From Desulfonatronovibrio sp. (lineage in GTDB: Bacteria > Desulfobacterota > Desulfovibrionia > Desulfovibrionales > Desulfonatronovibrionaceae), in NCBI GenBank assembly GCA_003557865.1, contig PWNK01000157.1:1-34488 (forward strand): a DNA stretch of 34,488 nt, written 5' to 3'. The translations under genes were made by a program, and so were the position numbers. Below the pieces are notes generated by a model that saw only the letters and a program-made list of their open reading frames with translations, did not search any database and was not told the origin of the DNA. Shown piece after piece: positions 10,383 through 22,799 of this stretch (its first letter is position 1; each line of letters begins with the position of its first letter).

Positions 10383-10412
10383 TTGACAAAGGGGAAAAAA
10401 CAAAACTATATC
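10383..10412 (+). promoter_or_regulatory. Putative sigma70-type promoter of the aromatic operon (TTGACA-18-TATATC) with AT-rich upstream element
   Basis: TTGACA at 10383-10388, TATATC at 10407-10412, preceded by tttcattttttttaaaaatatag. Predicted +1 falls around 10418-10420. Confidence 0.6.
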
Positions 10413-10418
10413 CAACTC

Positions 10419-10511
10419 ATGTTCAATGATACTCTAAACTTCAGCCACGCCGATTTCTATTTTTGGTATTTTTATTTTAACAGGGCCTGTGGTCTGGAGG
10501 GAGAGGTTTAG
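10419..10511 (+). CDS. Leader peptide with an all-aromatic codon run (putative attenuator leader)
   Basis: atg ttc aat gat act cta aac ttc agc cac gcc gat ttc tat ttt tgg tat ttt tat ttt aac agg gcc tgt ggt ctg gag gga gag gtt tag = MFNDTLNFSHADFYFWYFYFNRACGLEGEV*. Absent from the ORF track (30 aa). Confidence 0.85.
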   Translation: MFNDTLNFSHADFYFWYFYFNRACGLEGEV

Positions 10512-10542
10512 TCTAACTACAACTGGTTTAAACTCAAAATCC

Positions 10543-10578
10543 AAAGGGCCGCAGGCAAAAGCCGGCGGCCCTTTTTTT
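10543..10578 (+). terminator. Intrinsic terminator in the leader of the aromatic operon (attenuator terminator)
   Basis: aaaGGGCCGCaGGC-aaaa-GCCgGCGGCCCttttttt: 7-bp GC stem, one A/G mismatch, 3 bp, AAAA loop, 7 T; lies ~57 nt before the first structural gene start. Confidence 0.88.
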
Positions 10579-10634: not shown

Positions 10635-11435
10635 ATGCACCTGGGAAAAGCAATCAGACTGGAGAGGATTTTCAACCGCAACACCGGAAGGACCATTATT
10701 GTCCCCCTGGACCACGGAGTGACAGTAGGGCCTATTTATGGTCTGGTGGATCTGCGGGCCACAGTTGGAAAAATCGCCGAGGGAGGCGCCAACGCGGTGG
10801 TCATGCACAAGGGCCTGGCCAGGTGTGGGCACAGGGGTGAGGGCAGTGATGTGGGACTTATTGTCCATCTCTCGGCAAGCACTTCAATATCCCCCTATCC
10901 CAATGCCAAAACTCTTGTGGCCACGGTGGAAGACGCCATCAAGCTCGGTGCTGACGCTGTTTCGGTTCATGTGAACCTCGGGGATGAAACCGAGCGAGAT
11001 ATGCTCCGGGACATGGGTGCAGTGGCTTCCAGGGCCAATGAATGGGGCATGCCTCTTCTGGCCATGGTTTACGCCAGAGGGCCTAAGGTCAAGGATGAGT
11101 TCGATATGGATGTTGTCAGCCACTGCGCCAGGGTCGGTGAAGAACTGGGGGCTGATGTGGTCAAGGTCCCTTATACCGGTGAAATGGACAGTTTTTCCAA
11201 GGTGGTGGAATCATGCTGCATCCCGGTGGTTATTGCCGGGGGCCCCAAGCTGGAAAACGGACTGGATCTGATTCAGATGGTGCACGATGCCATAGCTGCC
11301 GGGGGAGCGGGGCTGTCCATCGGGCGCAATATCTTTCAGCACGACAACCCGTCCCTGATAATCAGGACCCTAAATGAAGTTGTGCACAATGATATGGAGA
11401 TTGATGAGGCCATGGAGATGCTGGAGAAGGGATAG
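10635..11435 (+). CDS. 2-amino-3,7-dideoxy-D-threo-hept-6-ulosonate (ADTH) synthase / class I FBA-like aldolase (AroA')
   Basis: [37 protein letters not shown]...DVVKVPYTG...VVIAGGPK...[12 protein letters not shown]; followed by DHQ synthase II. SD aaggaggag at 10622-10630. Confidence 0.88.
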
Positions 11436-11691
11436 CCCGAGCCCGTAAATGATTTATCTCATGGTCTGCCGGTTTTTTATCTTTTATGGTATCATAGATT
11501 TGAAATGAATTGCCGGGCAGTTAATAATCTTTAGCTGCGCACAAAGATTGTTTACATTTTCCGGGATTCTGAATTACCGGGATATCAGCGGTTTTAAGGG
11601 CATGATTTTTTTATCTTTAACATTTTTCCCCGCCACAACGTGGCCGATCTTTAACTCTTAACTCGCAAGAGTTGACAGGCTGAACCCAGAA

Positions 11692-12666
11692 ATGAGCAGA
11701 AAAATATTCTTTAAAGCTGTCCCTTTTGACAAGAGCATGGTTACCCTGGCCCTGGAATCAGGCGTTGACGCCGTAATTGCAAAAAAAGAAGATCTGGAAA
11801 AGATTTCAGCACTTGGCAGGACTGAAGTCCTGGATGTTGACGGTTTCAGCTTTATGAACATCAAGCGTAAGGAAGATGAGCAAGCTGTTGTGGACTTGAT
11901 CAGTTCCGGGAAAAAAGTTGTTATTTCCCGGGATGTTGAAATCATACCAGTGGAAAACATCCTGGCCCAGACCCCGGATGTGGGCATGGAGGTGGACTCT
12001 GTTTCGGGACTGGAAACGGCCATGGGCATTCTGGAAAAGGGTGTCGGCTATCTGGTGGTGGACAAGGCAAGCGCCCCGGAGCTCAAGGCAATGGTCAGCA
12101 AGGTGAAGCAGGATCAGGGCGGGGTTGATCTGGTTTCGGGAAAAATAACCGCCATTTCACCCATCGGCCTGGGGCACAGGGTCTGCGTGGACACCATCTC
12201 CCTGCTCAAAACAGGACAGGGCATGCTGGTGGGCAACTCAAGCGCGTTCACTTTCCTGGTCAACGCCGAGACGGAATCCAATCCTTATGTGGCGGCCAGG
12301 CCTTTCAGGATCAACGCGGGCGCGGTTCATTCCTATGCCTGTCTGCCCCAGGACAGAACAGCATATCTGGAAGAGCTCTCTCCAGGCAGGGAGGTGCTCA
12401 TCGCCACCAGTGAGGGAGGCAGTTTTTCCGCGGTGGTGGGCAGAATTAAAACCGAAATCAGGCCCATGCTGCTGATTAGCGCTGAATTTGAAGGGAGCAC
12501 CGGCAGCATTGTCCTGCAGAACGCGGAAACCATCAGGCTTGTGGGCAGCGACAGACAGCCGGTTAGTGTTGTCCAGCTCAAGGTGGGCGATGAAGTCCTG
12601 TGTAAAACGGATCAGGCCGGCAGACATTTTGGAATGCGAATTCAGGAAGATATCCGGGAAAAATAG
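11692..12666 (+). CDS. 3-dehydroquinate synthase II (archaeal-type, AroB')
   Basis: VKQDQGGVDLVSGKITAISPIGLGHRVCVDTISLLKTGQGMLVGNSSAFTFLVNAETESNPYVAARPFRINAGAVHSYACLPQDRTAYLEEL, characteristic of DHQ synthase II. Confidence 0.93.
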   Translation: MSRKIFFKAVPFDKSMVTLALESGVDAVIAKKEDLEKISALGRTEVLDVDGFSFMNIKRKEDEQAVVDLISSGKKVVISRDVEIIPVENILAQTPDVGMEVDSVSGLETAMGILEKGVGYLVVDKASAPELKAMVSKVKQDQGGVDLVSGKITAISPIGLGHRVCVDTISLLKTGQGMLVGNSSAFTFLVNAETESNPYVAARPFRINAGAVHSYACLPQDRTAYLEELSPGREVLIATSEGGSFSAVVGRIKTEIRPMLLISAEFEGSTGSIVLQNAETIRLVGSDRQPVSVVQLKVGDEVLCKTDQAGRHFGMRIQEDIREK

Positions 12667-12668
12667 AC

Positions 12669-13757
12669 ATGGACCAGGAACACAATCTGGAAAGGATCCG
12701 GGAACAGATAAGCTCCATTGATGAGGGCGTACTCGAGCTTTTGAACAGAAGGGCCTCTCTCAGCCTGCAGGTGGGCCGGATAAAATCCAGGTTTCAGGAC
12801 AGCGTGTTCAAGCCTTTCAGGGAAAAGGAAGTCCTCAATGGCCTGGCGGGAAAAAACAGGGGCCCTCTTCCTGAGGAGCACCTGCGAGCGGTTTACAGGG
12901 AGATTCTCTCATCATCAAGAAGCCTGCAGCAGAAACAAAGAGTGGTATATCTTGGTCCGGAAGGGACCTTCTCCTACTTTGCAGGAGTTGAGTACCTGGG
13001 GCACAGTGCTGATTTCTTTTCCAGGAACAGTCTGGAGGACGTCTTCAGGGCCGTGGACAGCCGGGAAGCTGAACTGGGAATTATTCCCCTTGAAAACTCT
13101 TTGCAGGGCAGCGTGGGGCAGAGCTTGGATCTGTTTCTCAAGTTCGAGGTGTTTATCCATGCCGAGGTTTTCTGCCGCATCAGCCACGCCCTGCTCAGCA
13201 ATGAAAAAACACTGGCTGAGATTAAAAAGGTTTATTCCCATCCGCAGGCCCTGCAGCAATGTTCAGTCTGGCTCAGGACCAATCTTCCCGGGGTGCCCAT
13301 AATTCCGGATGAAAGTACTGCCTCGGCAGCCAGAAGGGCCGCGGGAGAAACCGGAGCCGCAGCCCTGGGGCACCGGAAGCTGGCCGGGATATTTCATCTG
13401 GATATCCTTGAACAGGGCCTGGAGGACGTGCCGGACAACTGGACGAGATTTCTGGTCATCAGCGCGTCTCCCCCTGAAACCGGCAGCCGCGAAAAAACAT
13501 CGCTGCTGTTTACGGTCATGGATAAGCCCGGTTCACTGGTCAAAGCCCTGAATGTTCTCTCCAGAAAGGGAATCAATATGAAGAAGCTGGAATCAAGACC
13601 CATGCGCGTGGAAAAGTGGAGATATGTGTTTTTTACCGATGTGGAATGCGACCTGACCTCTGAAGAATACGCGGATGTGCTCAGAGAGCTTGAAGAAAAC
13701 TGTCATTTCCTGAGGATTCTGGGAAGCTACCCGCATGGTCCTCAGATTACCGCTTAA
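12669..13757 (+). CDS. pheA: Bifunctional chorismate mutase / prephenate dehydratase
   Basis: AroQ-type N-terminus (IREQISSIDEGVLELLNRRASLSLQVGRIKSR); VVYLGPEGTFSYFAG, PLENSLQGSVGQSLDLF; ACT-domain ESRPMRVEKWRYVFFTDVE. Confidence 0.95.
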   Translation: MDQEHNLERIREQISSIDEGVLELLNRRASLSLQVGRIKSRFQDSVFKPFREKEVLNGLAGKNRGPLPEEHLRAVYREILSSSRSLQQKQRVVYLGPEGTFSYFAGVEYLGHSADFFSRNSLEDVFRAVDSREAELGIIPLENSLQGSVGQSLDLFLKFEVFIHAEVFCRISHALLSNEKTLAEIKKVYSHPQALQQCSVWLRTNLPGVPIIPDESTASAARRAAGETGAAALGHRKLAGIFHLDILEQGLEDVPDNWTRFLVISASPPETGSREKTSLLFTVMDKPGSLVKALNVLSRKGINMKKLESRPMRVEKWRYVFFTDVECDLTSEEYADVLRELEENCHFLRILGSYPHGPQITA

Positions 13758-13778: not shown

Positions 13779-15128
13779 ATGAATAATGCTTTTGCCCCCA
13801 TCGTCCTCAGGGCCCCTTCATCCAAGTCCATGTCCCACAGGGCCCTGCTGGCTGCCGGGCTGGCCAGCGGGGAATCAAGACTGAAAAGTGTTCTCTTCAG
13901 TGATGATCTGTCCCATACCAGGATGTGTCTCACGGCCATGGGTGCTGAAATACAGGATTCAGGACCTGATCTGCTGGTCAGGGGAATCAGCGGCAAAATA
14001 TCTTCCGGTCCCGGGGGGAGAGTCATGCTGGATGTGGGGGAGTCAGGAACAACCTGCAGGCTTTTGGCTGCCATTGTGGCCGCTGGAGAGGGAGAGTTTG
14101 AGATTTTCGGCCGGGGAAGAATGCATCAGCGCCCCATAAAAAGTCTTGACGCCGCCTTAAGTCCCCTGGGAGTCAGGTTCAGGTACCTGGGCAGGGATGG
14201 ATGCCCTCCGGTGATCATCTCCTCAAGCGGACTGCCCGGGGGAGAGATGAGCATTTCACTGGATGACAGCAGCCAGTATTTATCAGGGATCCTTCTGGCC
14301 TCCACCATGGCCCGGGATACGCTGGTCATAAACATTGCCGGACAAAAGGTGGTTTCATGGCCTTACGTCAACCTGACCCTGCAGATCCTGGAAGAATTCC
14401 GCTGCCCGGTAAAGATTCAGATCCTGGAAGGAAAGACCTGGAAGGAAGTAAGTGACCGGGAGGTTGTTAAGGTTCAGCCTGGAAAACTGAGGTTCATAGT
14501 CAGCCCCAAAGTGTTGCCGGCCAGAGAATATGAGGTGGAAGGAGATTTCAGCAATGCTTCATATCTGCTTTCCGCAGGAGCAGCCGGAAATATGCCTGTC
14601 CTGGTCGAGGGTCTAAATATCCGTTCAAGACAGGGGGACAAGGCCATTCTTGACATCCTGACTAAAATGGGCGCCGCGGTAGAAAGAGCTCAAGACGGGA
14701 TCCTGGTTCAGGGCAAAAAACTCAAAGGTGTTGATCTGGATATGGGGGCAAGCCCGGATCTTGTCCCCACAGTGGCGGTCCTGGCCTCAATGGCTGAGGG
14801 AAGGACCATGATCACCAACGTGGCTCATCTTAAAATCAAGGAAAGTGACAGATTAAGCGGGGTGTGCACTGAAATTGCCAGAACCGGATGCAGCTGTGAA
14901 CTTCTGGATGACGGACTGGTGATTCATCCGGCCAGGATTAAGCCTGCTCAAAGGATAGAGTTTTTAACATACGGTGATCACCGCATGGCCATGAGCCTGT
15001 CCCTTTACGAACTGGCCGGTGTTCATGTGCTCCTGGATAATCCTGGCTGTGTAAACAAATCTTTTCCGGATTTCTGGAATGAATGGGCAAAAATCAGATC
15101 CGCTCATGGATACGCAGTTAATGCATAA
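13779..15128 (+). CDS. aroA: 3-phosphoshikimate 1-carboxyvinyltransferase (EPSP synthase)
   Basis: APSSKSMSHRALLAAGLASGES...DVGESGTTCRLLA...LKIKESDRLSG...TYGDHRMAMSLSL. Confidence 0.95.
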   Translation: MNNAFAPIVLRAPSSKSMSHRALLAAGLASGESRLKSVLFSDDLSHTRMCLTAMGAEIQDSGPDLLVRGISGKISSGPGGRVMLDVGESGTTCRLLAAIVAAGEGEFEIFGRGRMHQRPIKSLDAALSPLGVRFRYLGRDGCPPVIISSSGLPGGEMSISLDDSSQYLSGILLASTMARDTLVINIAGQKVVSWPYVNLTLQILEEFRCPVKIQILEGKTWKEVSDREVVKVQPGKLRFIVSPKVLPAREYEVEGDFSNASYLLSAGAAGNMPVLVEGLNIRSRQGDKAILDILTKMGAAVERAQDGILVQGKKLKGVDLDMGASPDLVPTVAVLASMAEGRTMITNVAHLKIKESDRLSGVCTEIARTGCSCELLDDGLVIHPARIKPAQRIEFLTYGDHRMAMSLSLYELAGVHVLLDNPGCVNKSFPDFWNEWAKIRSAHGYAVNA

Positions 15129-15888
15129 GATTGCCATAGTCGGGGGGCGGGGCCGTATGGGGCTCATGCTGGGCAAGAGGTTTTCCCATGCCGGAGCGGA
15201 GGTTCTCTGCCTTGACCAGCCCCTTCCTCTGGAAGGACTTGAGAGTCTGCTTGCTTCAGTAAAGTTTGTTCTGCTTGCGGTGCCTATTTCCGTAATGGGA
15301 CAGGTGGTGGAGGCTGTGGCTCCCAGGATGACCCCGGGGACAATTCTGGCGGATATCTGTTCAGTCAAGGTTGTGCCCATGATGAAGATGGAAAACGCGT
15401 ATTCAGGACCGGTTCTTGGAACCCATCCCCTCTTCGGCCCGGAACCCGGGTCCGGTGAAGTGCTCAAGGTTGCCCTTTGCCCCGGAAATCGATCGGACTT
15501 ATCAGTGGTGGCCATGGCAGAGGATCTTTTTGCCCGGGCAGGCATGAAAACATTCATCACCAGCGCTGATGAGCATGACCAGGCCATGGCCTGCATCCAG
15601 AGCCTGAATTTTGTGACCACGGTCTCCTATTTCGCCAGTCTCCCGGAAGATCTTGACCTGGAGAAGTTTGCCACGCCCTCATTCATGCGCAGGGTAAGCT
15701 CTGCCCGGAAAATGCTCAATGAAGACGCCGTCCTTTTTTCATCCCTGGCTGAGGACAATCCATATACCGGCCAGATGATCCGCCGGTTCAAATCTTTTCT
15801 CAACCTCAGCGCGGCAGGAGAGATGGAGCTTCTCCAGGACAAGGCCCTCTGGTGGTGGCGCAATGAGAAAAATCCCGGGGGACAGTAG
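15121..15888 (+). CDS. tyrA: Prephenate dehydrogenase
   Basis: MHKIAIVGGRGRMGLMLGKRFSHAGAEV...LLAVPISVMGQVVEAVAPRMTPGTILADICSVKVVPMMKM...VLGTHPLFGPEPGS; start ATG 15121 overlaps the aroA stop. Confidence 0.9.
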   Translation: MHKIAIVGGRGRMGLMLGKRFSHAGAEVLCLDQPLPLEGLESLLASVKFVLLAVPISVMGQVVEAVAPRMTPGTILADICSVKVVPMMKMENAYSGPVLGTHPLFGPEPGSGEVLKVALCPGNRSDLSVVAMAEDLFARAGMKTFITSADEHDQAMACIQSLNFVTTVSYFASLPEDLDLEKFATPSFMRRVSSARKMLNEDAVLFSSLAEDNPYTGQMIRRFKSFLNLSAAGEMELLQDKALWWWRNEKNPGGQ

Positions 15889-15915: not shown

Positions 15916-15953
15916 AAAAAGCCGTGTCCTCCGGGAAGGACACGGCTTTTTTT
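15916..15953 (+). terminator. Intrinsic terminator between tyrA and trpE
   Basis: aaaaagccgtgtcct-ccggga-aggacacggctttttttg: perfect stem with T tract. Confidence 0.88.
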
Positions 15954-16038
15954 GTTTCTCTTGTCTGTCAAACCGGGCTAATCAGTGGCTCTCGGCTACC
16001 AGGGCTCAAAGCGCCTCGCCGTGTTTCCAAAGATATTA

Positions 16039-16098: not shown

Positions 16099-17508
16099 AT
16101 GATCAGATTGAAGCAGAAGGGAACATGCCTCCCGGCGGACACCCAGACTCCGGTTTCACTGTATCTGGGTTTTGTGGGCCGGGAAAAGGGCGTTCTGCTG
16201 GAAAGTTCCGAAGTTGACGGAAGGTTGGGGCGCTACAGCCTGCTTGCCTGGGACTTCAGAATGCAGCTTGGGTGCCTAGACGGGAAGCTGACGGTCAAGG
16301 TCCTGGACCACCGCCTGGACAAGCTCAAGGAGCTGGAAGGAACTGAGTTTACCGCAGGGCTGCGCCGGGTGCTGCAGGAGATTGAGATTGAACCGGACAC
16401 GGAATTTGACCTGCCTCCCATGACCCGAGCCCTTTACGGCTATCTGGGCTACGGCCTGAGCGGCCTGCTGGAGCCCAGCCTTGGGCAGGCCCTGCCCTTG
16501 AAAGAGACTGAAGCTCAGCTTGTGCTCCCGGGCCGGGTTCTTCTTTTTGATCACCTTCACTACCATTGTTTCTATCTTTGTCTTGATACCGATACATCAT
16601 TGCCCAAACCCAAACCCTCCAGGGCCAAATCTGATTTCAAGATAGGCAAGATAAGCACAAGGCCGGAACAGAAGCAGTTTCAGGACAGGGTAGTCAAGAC
16701 CAAAGAGCTCATCAGGCAGGGCGAGGCCATTCAGGTGGTTCTCTCCACCCGTTTTGAAGCCGCGTTCAAAGGGGATCCTTTTCTGGTCTACAGACACCTG
16801 CGGAGGATAAACCCTTCCCCGTGTACCTTTTATCTGAAGCTTGAGGATATAACCCTCATGGGATCTTCACCGGAGCTCATGGTCAAGTGCGGGCAGAACG
16901 TTCTGCAGCTCAGGCCCATTGCCGGGACAAGACCCAGGGGAGAAACCGAGAAAGAGGATCAGGCGCTGGCGGATGAACTGCTGGGCGATGAAAAGGAGCG
17001 GGCGGAACATGTCATGCTGGTTGATCTGGGACGCAATGACCTGGGCAGGATAGCTGAGTCAGGAAGCGTTGAAGTTGATAAATTCATGCAGGTGGAACGT
17101 TTCTCCCATGTCATGCACATGACCTCCTACCTGTCAGCCAGGCTGAAAAAGGACCTGGACGTTATCCATATCCTCAAGGCCTCTTTCCCGGCGGGAACGG
17201 TTTCCGGGGCTCCCAAGATCAGGGCCATGCAGATCATTTCAGAAATGGAAGATATCCCCCGTGGACCATATGCCGGAGCCATCGGCTGGATTGGGCTGGA
17301 CCGGGGGGCAGTGAACATGGATACCGGGATAACCATCAGGAGTCTTTGGATCAGGGATGGAAAGATCAGCTGGCAGGCCGGTGCCGGCGTGGTTTTTGAT
17401 TCTGTCCCCCGGAAAGAGTGGGAGGAATGCGCCAACAAGGCCAAGGCTATCCGCAAGGCCTTGAGCTATACAGGAGGTACGGATGATTTTGCTCATCGAC
17501 AACTATGA
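16099..17508 (+). CDS. trpE: Anthranilate synthase component I
   Basis: PSPCTFYLKLEDITLMGSSPELMVK...LRPIAGTRPRGETEKED...LVDLGRNDLGRIAESGSVEVDKFMQVERFSHVMHMTSYLSARL...SFPAGTVSGAPKIRAMQIISEME; SD aaaggag. Confidence 0.95.
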   Translation: MIRLKQKGTCLPADTQTPVSLYLGFVGREKGVLLESSEVDGRLGRYSLLAWDFRMQLGCLDGKLTVKVLDHRLDKLKELEGTEFTAGLRRVLQEIEIEPDTEFDLPPMTRALYGYLGYGLSGLLEPSLGQALPLKETEAQLVLPGRVLLFDHLHYHCFYLCLDTDTSLPKPKPSRAKSDFKIGKISTRPEQKQFQDRVVKTKELIRQGEAIQVVLSTRFEAAFKGDPFLVYRHLRRINPSPCTFYLKLEDITLMGSSPELMVKCGQNVLQLRPIAGTRPRGETEKEDQALADELLGDEKERAEHVMLVDLGRNDLGRIAESGSVEVDKFMQVERFSHVMHMTSYLSARLKKDLDVIHILKASFPAGTVSGAPKIRAMQIISEMEDIPRGPYAGAIGWIGLDRGAVNMDTGITIRSLWIRDGKISWQAGAGVVFDSVPRKEWEECANKAKAIRKALSYTGGTDDFAHRQL

Positions 17509-18055
17509 TTCCTTTACTTTCAACCTGGTTCAGGTGCTTCAAAAAATGGGTGTGGACCCGGTTGTTGTTAGAAACAATGACCCCTTTGTGTTTGAAGCTC
17601 TTGAAGGAGAGCTCGAGGCCGCGGTCATTTCGCCGGGTCCCGGAAGGCCTGAGCATGCCGGGCTCTGTCTTGAATTCCTGCACAGGCTGGACCCGACTGT
17701 TCCTGTTCTGGGGGTCTGTCTCGGCCATCAGGTCCTGGGTCATTTAGCCGGGGCAAAGGTCAGGGTGGCGGACAGGATCATGCACGGCAAGACCAGCATG
17801 GTTCACCATGAACAGCAGGGCATATTCAGCGGGGTCCCAAACCCCTTTGAGGTCTGCCGGTATCACTCCCTTGTGGTTGAACCAGAGGATCAAAGGGGAT
17901 TCAAGGTTACGGCCTGGACCGAAGAAAAGGAGGTCATGGGCCTGGAGTACGCTGATCGCGCCTGGATGGGGGTTCAGTTTCATCCAGAGTCGATCCTGAC
18001 GCCCATGGGCCCGGTTATTGTCAAGAATTTTCTTGGTATGGCGGGGATCAGATAA
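17483..18055 (+). CDS. trpG: Anthranilate synthase component II (glutamine amidotransferase)
   Basis: MILLIDNYDSFTFNLVQ...ISPGPGRPEHAGLCL...PVLGVCLGHQ...GVQFHPESILTPMG. Confidence 0.95.
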   Translation: MILLIDNYDSFTFNLVQVLQKMGVDPVVVRNNDPFVFEALEGELEAAVISPGPGRPEHAGLCLEFLHRLDPTVPVLGVCLGHQVLGHLAGAKVRVADRIMHGKTSMVHHEQQGIFSGVPNPFEVCRYHSLVVEPEDQRGFKVTAWTEEKEVMGLEYADRAWMGVQFHPESILTPMGPVIVKNFLGMAGIR

Positions 18056-18079
18056 CAGATTGTTAAGAGGGGAACCAGC

Positions 18080-19072
18080 ATGAACATTCAAAGATCACTA
18101 AACAGGATCTGCAGCGGGCAGAACCTTGAATACCCGGAAAGCCTTGATCTTTTCAGGGCCCTTTTTGAAGGTCGGCTGACAGCGGCCCAGAGCGGCGCAT
18201 TGCTGATGGGACTGAGATTAAAGGGTGAAACAGGGGATGAACTGGGAGCCGCGGTGGAGGTGGCCCTGGAACGGGCCAGACTGGTCAGCGGAATAAAGGG
18301 GCAGCGCATTGACACCTGCGGCACGGGTGGAGACGGAAGGAGCAGCTTCAACTGTTCCACAGCAGTAGCCTTTTTTCTGGCTGATGCCGGGGTCAGGGTG
18401 GTCAAGCACGGCAACCGGGCTGTTTCCAGTTCCTGCGGCAGCGCGGACGTGGTAGAAGCCCTGGGACTGCCACTGCTCAGTGAACCTTCCCTGGTTGAAC
18501 CTGAGCTGAGAAGGACCAATTTCGCTTTTCTGTTTGCTCCGCATTTTCATCCAAGCTTTGCGGGTATTGCCCCCCTGCGCAAGGAACTGGGCATCAGGAG
18601 CATATTCAACCTCATGGGACCGCTTCTTAATCCGGCCAGACCCACGCACCAGATCCTGGGAGTGCCCGGAGAATCATTCATGCCCATTGTGGCCTGGGTT
18701 CTGCAGAAAAATGATGTCCATTCAGCCGCTGTGATTCACGGGGCTGAAGGATTTGACGAGCTGACGCCATGCGGTGTGAACAAGGTTGTTTTTGTGCGTG
18801 AGGGAAAACTCATCCCTGGTCTCATTGAGCCGGAAGAGATGGGTTTCTCCCGGTGTTCCCCCGGGGATATGGCCTGCAAGGATAAAGAAGAGGCTCTTTC
18901 CAGACAGAGGGAAGTCCTTTCCGGCTCCGGACCTCGGGCCATGCAGGACATGGTATCCCTGAACCTGGGGCTGGCCATCCACCTTCTCGAACCCGGCCGG
19001 AACCTCAGGGAGTGCATGGCTCAGGCCAGGGAGATGGTCCGGTCCGGCCTGAAGAATATAAAGGTCTGCTGA
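18080..19072 (+). CDS. trpD: Anthranilate phosphoribosyltransferase
   Basis: DTCGTGGDGRSSFNCSTAVAFFLADAGVRVVKHGNRAVSSSCGSADVVEALG...GIRSIFNLMGPLLNPARP. Confidence 0.95.
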   Translation: MNIQRSLNRICSGQNLEYPESLDLFRALFEGRLTAAQSGALLMGLRLKGETGDELGAAVEVALERARLVSGIKGQRIDTCGTGGDGRSSFNCSTAVAFFLADAGVRVVKHGNRAVSSSCGSADVVEALGLPLLSEPSLVEPELRRTNFAFLFAPHFHPSFAGIAPLRKELGIRSIFNLMGPLLNPARPTHQILGVPGESFMPIVAWVLQKNDVHSAAVIHGAEGFDELTPCGVNKVVFVREGKLIPGLIEPEEMGFSRCSPGDMACKDKEEALSRQREVLSGSGPRAMQDMVSLNLGLAIHLLEPGRNLRECMAQAREMVRSGLKNIKVC

Positions 19073-19073
19073 G

Positions 19074-19847
19074 ATGGATAATGAAATGCTCAAGAAATTC
19101 ATTGACGCTAAAAAACAGGAGATACTTGAATTAAAGCGGCAAGAGGCTGGGCAGGGTCTGCCAAAGCCTTACCCTGGACACAGGCCTGAACTGGTAAAGG
19201 CCCTGTCCCGGCCGGGACCTTCGGTGATTGCCGAATATAAAAGGGCCTCGCCCTCCAGAGGAGTGATAAATACCGCCCTGTCAGCCGGTGATGCTGCGAA
19301 AATGTTTGTCAGGGGCGGAGCCAGGGCTTTTTCAGTGCTCACTGAGCACAAGTTTTTCCAGGGAGATCTGGATTTCCTGGGTGCCTTTGCCGGGCATGGT
19401 CTGCCGGTGCTGCGCAAGGATTTTCTTTTTCACCCCCTGCAGGTCAGGCAGACAGCGTCTACCCCGGCCTCAGCCCTGCTGTTTATCGTCAGGATTATCC
19501 AGGACAGGCACCTCTTAAAGGAGCTGGTAAAGATCAGCCAGGGACTGGGTCTGGAGCCGGTGGTGGAAATTTTCAACCACCAGGAACTGGAACAGGCCAG
19601 GTTCTCCGGGGCCAGGATCATCCTGGTCAACAACAGGGACCTGGACAGTATGAAGATTGACCTGAATACCGGTAAAGAGCTGATAGGTGAGAAAGACAGC
19701 CTGGAAACATGGATTTGCGCCAGCGGACTGGATAGTAAATACCAGGTTTATGAGTTTTACCATCTCGGTTTTGAAGCGTTTTTAATCGGAACGGGCATCA
19801 TGTCCAGTGATGATCCTGAAGATAAGTTAAGAGAGTTCAGCTCATGA
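19074..19847 (+). CDS. trpC: Indole-3-glycerol phosphate synthase
   Basis: VIAEYKRASPSRGVIN...SVLTEHKFFQGDLDFL...LPVLRKDFLFHPLQV...ILVNNRDLDSMKIDL; start ATG 19074 overlaps the trpD stop. Confidence 0.93.
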   Translation: MDNEMLKKFIDAKKQEILELKRQEAGQGLPKPYPGHRPELVKALSRPGPSVIAEYKRASPSRGVINTALSAGDAAKMFVRGGARAFSVLTEHKFFQGDLDFLGAFAGHGLPVLRKDFLFHPLQVRQTASTPASALLFIVRIIQDRHLLKELVKISQGLGLEPVVEIFNHQELEQARFSGARIILVNNRDLDSMKIDLNTGKELIGEKDSLETWICASGLDSKYQVYEFYHLGFEAFLIGTGIMSSDDPEDKLREFSS

Positions 19848-20473
19848 GCGGGCTGCTCATAAAGGTCTGCGGTCTGACTCTTGAAAGTGACCTGCTTTTC
19901 TGCCAGGAGAGCGGAGTTGATTTGACCGGCTTTATTTTCCATCCTGAAAGTCCCAGGTTTGTCAGCCCGGATATGGTCGGGTCCTGGAAAAAGAAAAGGG
20001 AAATCAGGGTAGGAGTATTTGTAAGACATTCTCCGGCTGAGATAATAAAGATCATTGACCGGGCTGAGCTTGATCTGGTCCAGCTGCATGGGGAACAGAA
20101 GCCTGAAGACTGTATGGCAGTGGGAAAAGACAGGGTAATCCGGGCATTCTGGCCGGAACGCTTTAACAGCTTGGAAGATTTTCAGATGGAACTGGAGCTG
20201 TTCAGGGATACCTGCCGTTATTTTCTTTTTGACTCCGGCAAAAGCGCCGGAGGCCACGGAAGAAGGATCACCAGTCCATGGATAAGAGGAATTGACAGCC
20301 CCAGACCATTTTTTCTGGCAGGGGGACTGGGACCGGACAATGCTGGAAAGGCCCTGAACATGGGAATGGCAGGAATTGACCTCAATTCAGGGGTTGAAAA
20401 GAATCCGGGCCGTAAGGACTGGAAAAAAATTGAGCAGGTTATAAATATCTTGAGAGTAAAAAGTAAAAAATAA
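19844..20473 (+). CDS. trpF: Phosphoribosylanthranilate isomerase
   Basis: LIKVCGLTLESDLLFCQESGVDLTGFIFHPESPRFV...DLVQLHGEQ...FDSGKSAGGHGRRI...FLAGGLGPDNAGKAL...IDLNSGVEKNPGRKD. Confidence 0.93.
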   Translation: MSGLLIKVCGLTLESDLLFCQESGVDLTGFIFHPESPRFVSPDMVGSWKKKREIRVGVFVRHSPAEIIKIIDRAELDLVQLHGEQKPEDCMAVGKDRVIRAFWPERFNSLEDFQMELELFRDTCRYFLFDSGKSAGGHGRRITSPWIRGIDSPRPFFLAGGLGPDNAGKALNMGMAGIDLNSGVEKNPGRKDWKKIEQVINILRVKSKK

Positions 20474-20622
20474 GTAACAGTTTAGCCATTCACATGTAGC
20501 ACTGGGACTGGCTCTCCCGGGACCCACTTGGCCATAAAATATGAATACAACTTCAAAATGCAGCTCAGGTTGGTGCCGGGGTGCCTGTCCCCTGCTTCCT
20601 TAAAAAAGGGCTAAACTGTTAC
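20474..20622. repeat. ~149-bp element with 14-bp perfect terminal inverted repeats, between trpF and trpB
   Basis: gtaacagtttagcc (20474-20487) and ggctaaactgttac (20609-20622) are exact reverse complements; interior carries gggactggctctcccggg and gtgccggggtgcctgtcccc. Confidence 0.75.
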
Positions 20623-20758
20623 AAAAATAAAATAACAGCAAGCCCGGGAAATCAAGTTGTACGGTTATGGAGCGGACATGGAGAAACTTGCATATAGTCA
20701 ATAAAAACAGATAAATGTCAAAATATGACTGTCAGTAAAATATTGTCGGGAGACGAAA

Positions 20759-21928
20759 ATGAGAAAAGGATATTTCGGAGAATTCGGAGGACAGTTTGTG
20801 CCCGAGCTTCTGGTCCCGCCCCTGACCGAGCTGGAAAAGGCCATGCAGGATATCATGGACGGCCCGCAGTTCAGGAAAGAGCTGGACCAGCTGTTCAGTG
20901 AGTTTGTGGGCAGGCCCACCCCCATCTGCAGATGCGCCAACCTCTCCCGGGATCTGGGGTTTGATTTATGGCTCAAAAGGGAAGACCTGGCTCATACCGG
21001 TGCACACAAAATCAATAATACTGTCGGCCAGGGCCTGCTGGCCAGGTATATGGGCAAGAAGTGCCTGCTGGCCGAAACCGGGGCCGGCCAGCACGGGGTG
21101 GCCACGGCCACGGCAGCCGCGGTCCTGGGTCTGGAGTGCATCGTGTTCATGGGCGCATTGGATGTCAAAAGACAAAGCCACAATGTGCGGAGGATGGAGC
21201 TTCTGGGGGCAAAGGTGGAGCCGGTGCAAAGCGGAACCAGGACTCTCAAGGATGCCATAAACGCGGCGCTCAGATACTGGATTGGACATCAGCAGGACAC
21301 CCACTACTGCCTGGGTTCGGCTGTGGGTCCTCATCCTTTCCCCTTGCTGGTCAGAAAGCTGCAGTCAGTAATCGGCCGGGAGGCCAGAAGCCAGTTTATG
21401 GAAAAAACCGGGAGGCTTCCGGATTATGTGGTTGCCTGTGTTGGCGGCGGATCCAACGCCGTGGGCATTTTTCACCCTTTTGCCAGGGACCCCCATGTAA
21501 ATCTGGTTGGAGTTGAAGCTGGAGGGGAGGGTACCCCTGGGTGCCACCACTCCGCCACTTTGTGCAGGGGCAGTTTCGGAGTTCTGCACGGAACCCGGAC
21601 TTATCTTCTCCAGACAGAGGAAGGTCAGATCATGCCCTCTCATTCCGTGGCTCCCGGTCTTGACTATCCAGGGGTAGGACCCGAGCATGCCCACCTGAAG
21701 GAAAGCGGCCGGGCCACATATGAAGTGATTTATGACCAACAGGCCCTGGAGGCGTTTTATCTGTTGTCCGGCAGGGAAGGCATCATCCCGGCTCTGGAAA
21801 GCTCCCACGCCCTGGCCTGGGTTATCGCCCGGAAAAACAGGATAAAACCTGAAAGCATGGTCCTGGTCAATCTTTCCGGGCGGGGGGATAAGGATCTGGA
21901 TATTGTCCGGGAGATTGAAGCACAATGA
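20759..21928 (+). CDS. trpB: Tryptophan synthase beta chain
   Basis: [22 protein letters not shown]...[30 protein letters not shown]...[19 protein letters not shown]...[15 protein letters not shown]...[11 protein letters not shown]. Confidence 0.97.
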
Positions 21929-22028
21929 CATGGCCGGCGGCAGAGTGCAGCTCGTCTGGATTATCCCCGAAAACTGCAGGGATATGGATCAAAATAACCA
22001 AGTTCACGGATTCAGTGGAGATACTGTC

Positions 22029-22799
22029 ATGAAAAAAGAAAACCTTCTCACCCAGCGGATCAATGAGGCGGTGCGAAGAGGTCGCAAGGCTTTGATTCCT
22101 TTTGTTCCCGCAGGGTTTCCCAGCAAGGATGCGTTCTGGGATATTATTTTGGAGCTGGATGATTCAGGAGCGGATATAATTGAAATTGGAGTCCCCTTTT
22201 CTGATCCGGTAGCTGACGGGCCCATTGTGGAAAGTGCGTCCATCAGGTGTCTTGAACAGGGAGTAAGTCTCTCGTGGATAATGAGCGAGCTGTTGAAATA
22301 CAGGGAGAAGCTGAGAGCGGGTATTGTGCTCATGGGTTATTATAACCCCTTTCTGCAGTACGGTCTGAGAAGGCTCTCGACGGAAGCAGAAAAAGCAGGG
22401 GTGAACGGGCTGATCATTCCGGACCTGATTCTGGAAGAGGTCCGTCCCCATCTGGAGCTGTTCGGGGACTTCCATCTGTCTTTTACCCCCCTGGTGGGAC
22501 TTAATACTTCCAAAGAACGCATGCGGGAATACTCCGGCATAAGTCCGGCCTTTGTCTATCTGGTGTCGGTTCTTGGCATTACCGGAACCAGGGCCAGCGC
22601 TGACCGTCTGCTGCGGGCAAAGCTGGCTGAGGTTAAAGAAGCCTTTGACTGTCCTGTAGCCCTGGGCTTTGGACTCAGCTCCAGGGCTCAGCTTGATCCC
22701 ATAGCTGATCTGGTGGATGCCGTGGTCTTTGGCAGTGCCCTTATTGAACATCTTGACTCGGGCCGAAAGGCTTCAGAATTTATGAAGGCCTGGAAGTAA
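22029..22799 (+). CDS. trpA: Tryptophan synthase alpha chain
   Basis: LIPFVPAGFPSKDAFWDIILELDDSGADIIEIGVPFSDPVADGPIVESASIRCLEQGVSL...VLMGYYNPFLQYGL...GLIIPDLILEE. Start ATG 22029 preferred over the listed GTG at 21903, whose extension overlaps trpB. Confidence 0.95.
   Translation: MKKENLLTQRINEAVRRGRKALIPFVPAGFPSKDAFWDIILELDDSGADIIEIGVPFSDPVADGPIVESASIRCLEQGVSLSWIMSELLKYREKLRAGIVLMGYYNPFLQYGLRRLSTEAEKAGVNGLIIPDLILEEVRPHLELFGDFHLSFTPLVGLNTSKERMREYSGISPAFVYLVSVLGITGTRASADRLLRAKLAEVKEAFDCPVALGFGLSSRAQLDPIADLVDAVVFGSALIEHLDSGRKASEFMKAWK

Follow-up and report, generated by a model that had tools for sequence, protein, structure and literature searches.

The classical attenuators are those of trpL and pheL in E. 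coli and of hisL in Salmonella. Multivalent attenuation is established for the branched-chain amino acids, in the leaders of ilvGMEDA and ilvBN, and is found in the thr leaders too. The DAHP synthase isozymes AroF, AroG and AroH of E. coli are controlled by TyrR and TrpR, and in mycobacteria leaderless polycysteine short ORFs act as attenuators. In the published surveys, ilvGMEDA, ilvBN and thr of E. coli are named among the attenuated operons (PMC1183508), attenuators for His, Leu, Thr, Trp, Ile/Val and Phe are described as probably gamma-proteobacterial in origin (Sun 2013, PMC3766115), and control of Tyr at the RNA level is attributed to T-boxes (Seliverstov 2005, PMC1262725). In the open-access literature searched, including these last two papers and Rodionov 2004 (PMC545781), there is no description of a multivalent leader for aromatic amino acids (F+Y+W), nor of a Tyr-only or tyrA-tail attenuator.

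The window analysed here is a stretch of 34,488 nucleotides from a Desulfonatronovibrio species. Its closest named relative is L290, a Desulfonatronovibrio MAG (sulfate-reducing order Desulfovibrionales), whose ADTH synthase is 94% identical to that of the window. A sequence-only reading had proposed that a leader peptide ahead of the aromatic amino acid genes senses Phe, Tyr and Trp by attenuation. The analysis bears this out, in that the anatomy is present, is conserved across the order, and has a codon specificity that follows the genes. Positions 10383–10578 are thus very likely to form an F/Y/W-sensing ribosome-mediated attenuator, with a second, Trp-only attenuator gating trpEGDCFBA. All features of the window described below are on the forward strand.

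The genes listed for the region in that reading were all recovered with NCBIfam profiles, and follow the leader in the order ADTH synthase–DHQS II–pheA–aroA–tyrA–trpEGDCFBA. ADTH synthase (2-amino-3,7-dideoxy-D-threo-hept-6-ulosonate synthase, 10635–11435) matches TIGR01949 with 398.5 bits, over the cut-off, and DHQS II (3-dehydroquinate synthase II, 11692–12666) matches NF002628 with 471.9 bits against a cut-off of 508. The matches of pheA (chorismate mutase/prephenate dehydratase, 12669–13757, NF008865) and aroA (13779–15128, TIGR01356) are over their cut-offs; that of tyrA (prephenate dehydrogenase, 15079–15888, start uncertain) to NF008400 is below it, at 119.6 bits. The genes trpE-trpG-trpD-trpC-trpF-trpB-trpA, again identified with NCBIfam, extend from 16099 to 22799. 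The gene order agrees with the single operon that had been assumed, but the trp set is separated from the rest by a second intrinsic terminator at 15916–15951. Two of the intergenic gaps are unusually long, between ADTH synthase and DHQS II (11436–11691) and between trpF and trpB (20474–20758), and no inverted repeats were found in them. Three related loci (L073, L080 and L092) have tandem ADTH synthase copies, with a second match after the first and approximately 1.65–1.8 kb from ADTH synthase to the start of DHQS II; there, the leader examined is that of the first copy.

The predicted promoter of the head leader, TTGACA-N18-TATATC, is at 10383–10412, and the predicted transcription start follows from it. 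The leader ORF, MFNDTLNFSHADFYFWYFYFNRACGLEGEV*, occupies 10419–10511, with its ATG at 10419, the A of which sits 7 nt past the −10 box, and its TAG stop at 10509–10511. Across the set of leaders described below, TTGAC is found 35–42 nt upstream of the leader ATG in 103 of 169, with a sharp peak at 36–38 nt, and a Shine-Dalgarno-like motif precedes 57 of the 169 leaders, compared to 166 of 184 ADTH synthase genes. This promoter consensus suggests that most of the order probably makes the leader mRNA in leaderless form; normal 5′ UTRs seem to precede the leader in genus g12 and the other classes. The control codons, Phe-Tyr-Phe-Trp-Tyr-Phe-Tyr-Phe (TTC TAT TTT TGG TAT TTT TAT TTT), are at 10455–10478.

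The intrinsic terminator (segments 3:4 and T tract, 10543–10578) is recognised in the sequence, by folding and in the alignment. Its hairpin, AAAGGGCCGCAGGC-AAAA-GCCGGCGGCCCTTT, covers 10543–10574, the T tract runs on to 10578, and the calculated strength with flanks is −25.7 kcal/mol. Direct reading of the sequence places the ORF, the aromatic run and the terminator exactly where they were originally described. A generic promoter and terminator scan of the window picked up neither the head promoter nor the head terminator, the latter apparently because of an internal A10553·G10564 mismatch in its stem; both were identified by eye and by folding. The mismatched A10553 is paired in the antiterminator.

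The antiterminator 5′ strand, segment 2 (GCCUGUGGUCU, 10485–10495), lies within the leader ORF, directly after the run, and pairs over about 11 bp with 10546–10556 in the 5′ arm of the terminator, so that the two structures are mutually exclusive. Over 164 loci the segment 2:3 duplex has a mean energy of −22.9 kcal/mol and a mean z of −3.3. In an alignment of 40 distinct leaders made with MAFFT from sequence only, with no structure fitted, 94.3% of the 2:3 cells are paired, compared to 36–43% when the segments are slid; for the terminator 3:4 cells the figure is 98.8%, with two-sided changes at 5 pairs. In 10 of the 40 leaders, both partners of the pair formed by alignment columns 19 and 94 have changed. 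Column 94 is A10553, the terminator mismatch, and its covariation with segment 2 despite that mismatch speaks for selection acting on the antiterminator as such.

The RNA, ending at the loop of the terminator, was also folded with the footprint of a ribosome placed at different positions. In silico, the extent of 2:3 pairing is 0.87 for a ribosome that has the first aromatic codon in its A site and 0.83 for one at the Trp codon, but 0.38 for one at the stop. A difference of more than 0.3 between stall and stop is seen at 107 loci as predicted, and at 0 in reverse. A ribosome stalled on the last two codons of the run would itself cover segment 2; it is therefore roughly the first six codons that are informative, and F, Y and W all occur among them. 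Segment 1 (CUUCAGCCAC, 10439–10448) pairs with segment 2 in the centroid fold when the ribosome is absent. This pairing is strong in the window, with a z of −4.3, but over the set its mean z is a weak −0.95, which gives no clear support for it as a conserved feature. The head region combines an ORF rich in product codons with a terminator ahead of the first gene and an antiterminator that excludes it; the position of the ribosome selects the hairpin in silico, and the codons stand for several products of the pathway under control.

An arrangement of this kind is rare by chance. Dinucleotide shuffling of the 460 nt upstream gave 8 of 8 aromatic codons in an ATG ORF at the same distance in 0 of 5000 shuffles, and a mixed F/Y/W window of 6 of 8 in 3 of 5000. 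We gathered 184 ADTH synthase upstream regions from the order Desulfovibrionales and from other classes of the phylum, and counted as a leader any ORF having an aromatic run with at least 4 of 8 aromatic codons. The run predicted to be conserved in orthologous leaders was found in 169 of them, 164 of these also having a detected terminator, and no leader was found in the other 15; at least 6 of 8 aromatic codons are present at 158 of the 184 loci, compared to 0.1% in shuffles. Identity across five species of the window's own genus is 98% for the run and terminator, compared to 63% for the codons ahead of the run and 58% between terminator and gene. Among leaders sharing the same peptide run, synonymous F/Y codons vary at 82 of the 1278 positions compared. 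Of 150 genomes in the order, 32 contain the DNA pattern for F-Y-F-W-[FY] plus two further codons, each at a single site, and by position 29 of the 32 sites are immediately upstream of ADTH synthase. The site in G046 is on a different contig from its ADTH synthase, to which it may belong, and those in G027 and G054 are elsewhere.

The codons in the leader correspond to the genes behind it. ADTH synthase copies linked to DHQS II have F+Y+W leaders in 108 of 116 cases. Solitary paralogues have Phe-type (16) or Tyr-type (5) leaders, none of them with W; of the two remaining solitary copies, one has an ambiguous F/Y leader and the other is interrupted by the contig end. The Phe-only leaders on solitary paralogues (L032–L034, L041, L045, L050, L051, L055, L068, L069 and L074) and the Tyr-only leaders (L104, L105, L107, L109 and L110) suggest a specialisation of isozymes reminiscent of E. 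coli AroG and AroF.

The Trp codon is absent from the aro leader in all five well-assembled genomes that lack trpD (G039, G052, G104, G119 and G149), compared to 3 of 109 genomes with trpD (G051, G090 and G136). The leader of G051 is frame-broken, in a 43%-complete assembly that has stops in trpD as well. No trpD was found in five more genomes that do carry W, their assemblies being incomplete or highly fragmented. There are only two independent losses of trp, the chorismate-to-Trp genes, on the ADTH synthase tree, both accompanied by W loss, and two further W losses without trp loss, and across the order the association between trp and W is thus suggestive rather than statistically independent proof. 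The presence of trpB alone was ruled out as a mark of Trp synthesis, since 3 of the 5 well-assembled trpD-less genomes retain it. These stand-alone trpB genes (G039:C33, G052:C1 and G119:C1) perhaps serve indole salvage.

A rule that W is present only if trp is in the same operon fails, because genus g12 keeps W and has trp elsewhere. The rule that W is present only if the genome makes Trp fits the order better, with G090 and G136 as exceptions; in other classes some leaders have no W despite trpD elsewhere in the genome, and the rule is therefore not general there. In g12 a Trp-only leader of its own precedes the unlinked trp operon (MNVFSNTISNSFKGWWWRIQLRGGDVRA is an example), and has a terminator and antiterminator in the same layout. 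The WWWRxxxxRGGDVRA-like ends of these leaders (L230–L235) resemble the TyrA tail WWWRSHTERGGVRPS of L152, and the g12 trp leader may be derived from a tyrA end.

A separate leader ahead of trpE was sought in the window and not found; the signal sits in tyrA. The tail of tyrA, ending in KALWWWRNEKNPGGQ*, appears to be the leader of a second attenuator. It contains three Trp codons, TGG TGG TGG (15850–15858), present as WWW in 55 of 62 tyrA genes followed by trpE, and then segment 2′ (UCCCGGGGGACA, 15873–15884), the putative antiterminator 5′ strand, which pairs with 15925–15936. The second intrinsic terminator, in the gap between tyrA and trpE (15916–15957), has a perfect 15-bp stem (15916–15930/15937–15951) followed by a T tract. 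In most related loci a G-rich stretch complementary to the 5′ arm of the second terminator comes after WWW, close to the tyrA stop.

It could be argued that only the head attenuator is real, the tyrA–trpE hairpin being an ordinary terminator, with trp transcribed from its own promoter and the complementarity in the tail a by-product. The hairpin is indeed strong and perfect, with a T tract, the gaps to trpE vary from approximately 85 to 530 nt, and WW(W) occurs in TyrA with no trp genes behind it (WWW in 4 of 6), so that WWW may partly be a feature of the protein that was later co-opted. It is the G-rich segment and the terminator, rather than WWW, that track trp: a terminator is found within 130 nt of tyrA at 49 of 62 trp-linked loci, and at 0 of 6 where trpE does not follow, trp being absent or unlinked. 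Two of these terminators, at L390 and L409, are probably spurious matches inside trpE; they were excluded from the duplex and folding set, leaving 47 distinct loci. For these the duplex of segment 2′ with the terminator has a mean energy of −22.6 kcal/mol and a mean z of −3.0, well above shuffles, with z below −2 in 37 of the 47, and the complementary segment keeps a nearly constant distance from WWW and from the tyrA stop, which it precedes by a median of 13 nt. Against this evidence an ordinary terminator is unlikely. In silico, 2:3 pairing at the second switch averages 0.91 over the 47 loci for a ribosome whose A site holds the first W codon, and 0.00 for one that has arrived at the tyrA stop. 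A second, Trp-only attenuator for trpEGDCFBA, with the end of tyrA as its leader, is therefore probable, and is kept in the majority of operons in the order that have linked trp genes.

Two other explanations concern the head leader. The ORF could encode a functional small hydrophobic protein, its aromatic run being conserved for the sake of the protein, and the start, the run and a RACGLEG-like C-terminal tail are all conserved in the peptide. The tail is, however, accounted for by the pairing of segment 2, and there are 63 distinct run sequences across the order, so that it is the composition which is kept and not the peptide sequence. Together with the switch of paralogue leaders to F-only or Y-only, and the departure of W with the trp genes, this makes a functional protein very improbable. 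We give equally little weight to a conserved U-rich RNA element, binding a protein or a metabolite, in which the F and Y codons would be incidental to a TTTTTATTTT tract. Although the run is T-rich in low-GC species, the amino acids are retained in high-GC species, for example as TTT TAC TTT TGG TAC TGG TTT, where TAC and TTC are used too. The run is moreover confined to one frame of an ORF, and Phe-, Tyr- and Trp-only variants exist. Finally, the Rfam search of the window matched only a tRNA, with no attenuator, riboswitch, amino-acid leader (such as Trp_leader) or T-box at the gathering threshold, and eight relatives gave zero matches.

On the attenuator reading, the head leader would sense charged tRNA-Phe, tRNA-Tyr and tRNA-Trp together. 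With all three plentiful, the ribosome would reach the leader stop and cover segment 2, allowing the head terminator to form; with any one of them short, it would stall in the run, segments 2 and 3 would pair, and transcription would read through into ADTH synthase, DHQS II, pheA, aroA and tyrA. At the second gate, Trp shortage would stall the ribosome on WWW of tyrA, and segment 2′, left uncovered, could then break up the 15916–15951 terminator. Under Trp sufficiency the ribosome would go on to the tyrA stop and cover segment 2′, and transcription would stop before trpE. Because the second gate would need Trp shortage, a shortage of Phe or Tyr alone would open only the head, and a shortage of Trp would open both. 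The earlier proposal that starvation for any one amino acid opens all branches together is not supported as it stands, since trpE to trpA lie behind the second conserved terminator with its antiterminator in the tyrA end. The whole probably forms a two-tier circuit, in which the F/Y/W head leader, the Trp gate in the WWW tail of tyrA and the Phe-only and Tyr-only leaders of the isozymes control the entire pathway by codon composition.

Such a circuit would extend classical attenuation to leaders that sense all three aromatic amino acids together, in a phylum from which attenuators of this kind seem hardly to have been described, with a leader codon composition that tracks gene content, isozyme role and pathway loss. 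If true, the use of the tail of a structural gene as a leader peptide would be an unusual way to split an operon into separately controlled sections.

The head leader resembles trpL and pheL of E. coli and hisL of Salmonella in having a short ORF with product codons, competing hairpins and a terminator before the first gene. Those leaders each sense one amino acid, whereas this one has codons for all three aromatics; it also differs in heading an operon of the ADTH/DHQS II route, in having a probably leaderless mRNA, and in having its control codons just 3′ of segment 1. The probable lack of a 5′ UTR is shared with the mycobacterial polycysteine ORFs, also short leaderless attenuator ORFs, although those respond to cysteine and belong to another phylum. 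The separate tuning of first-step isozymes to Tyr, Phe and Trp has its counterpart in AroF, AroG and AroH, where it is achieved with repressor proteins rather than by leader codon composition. In integrating several end products of a branched pathway in one leader, the head leader is like those of ilvGMEDA, ilvBN and thr, which respond to the branched-chain amino acids or to Thr and Ile, where here the response would be to the aromatic amino acids.
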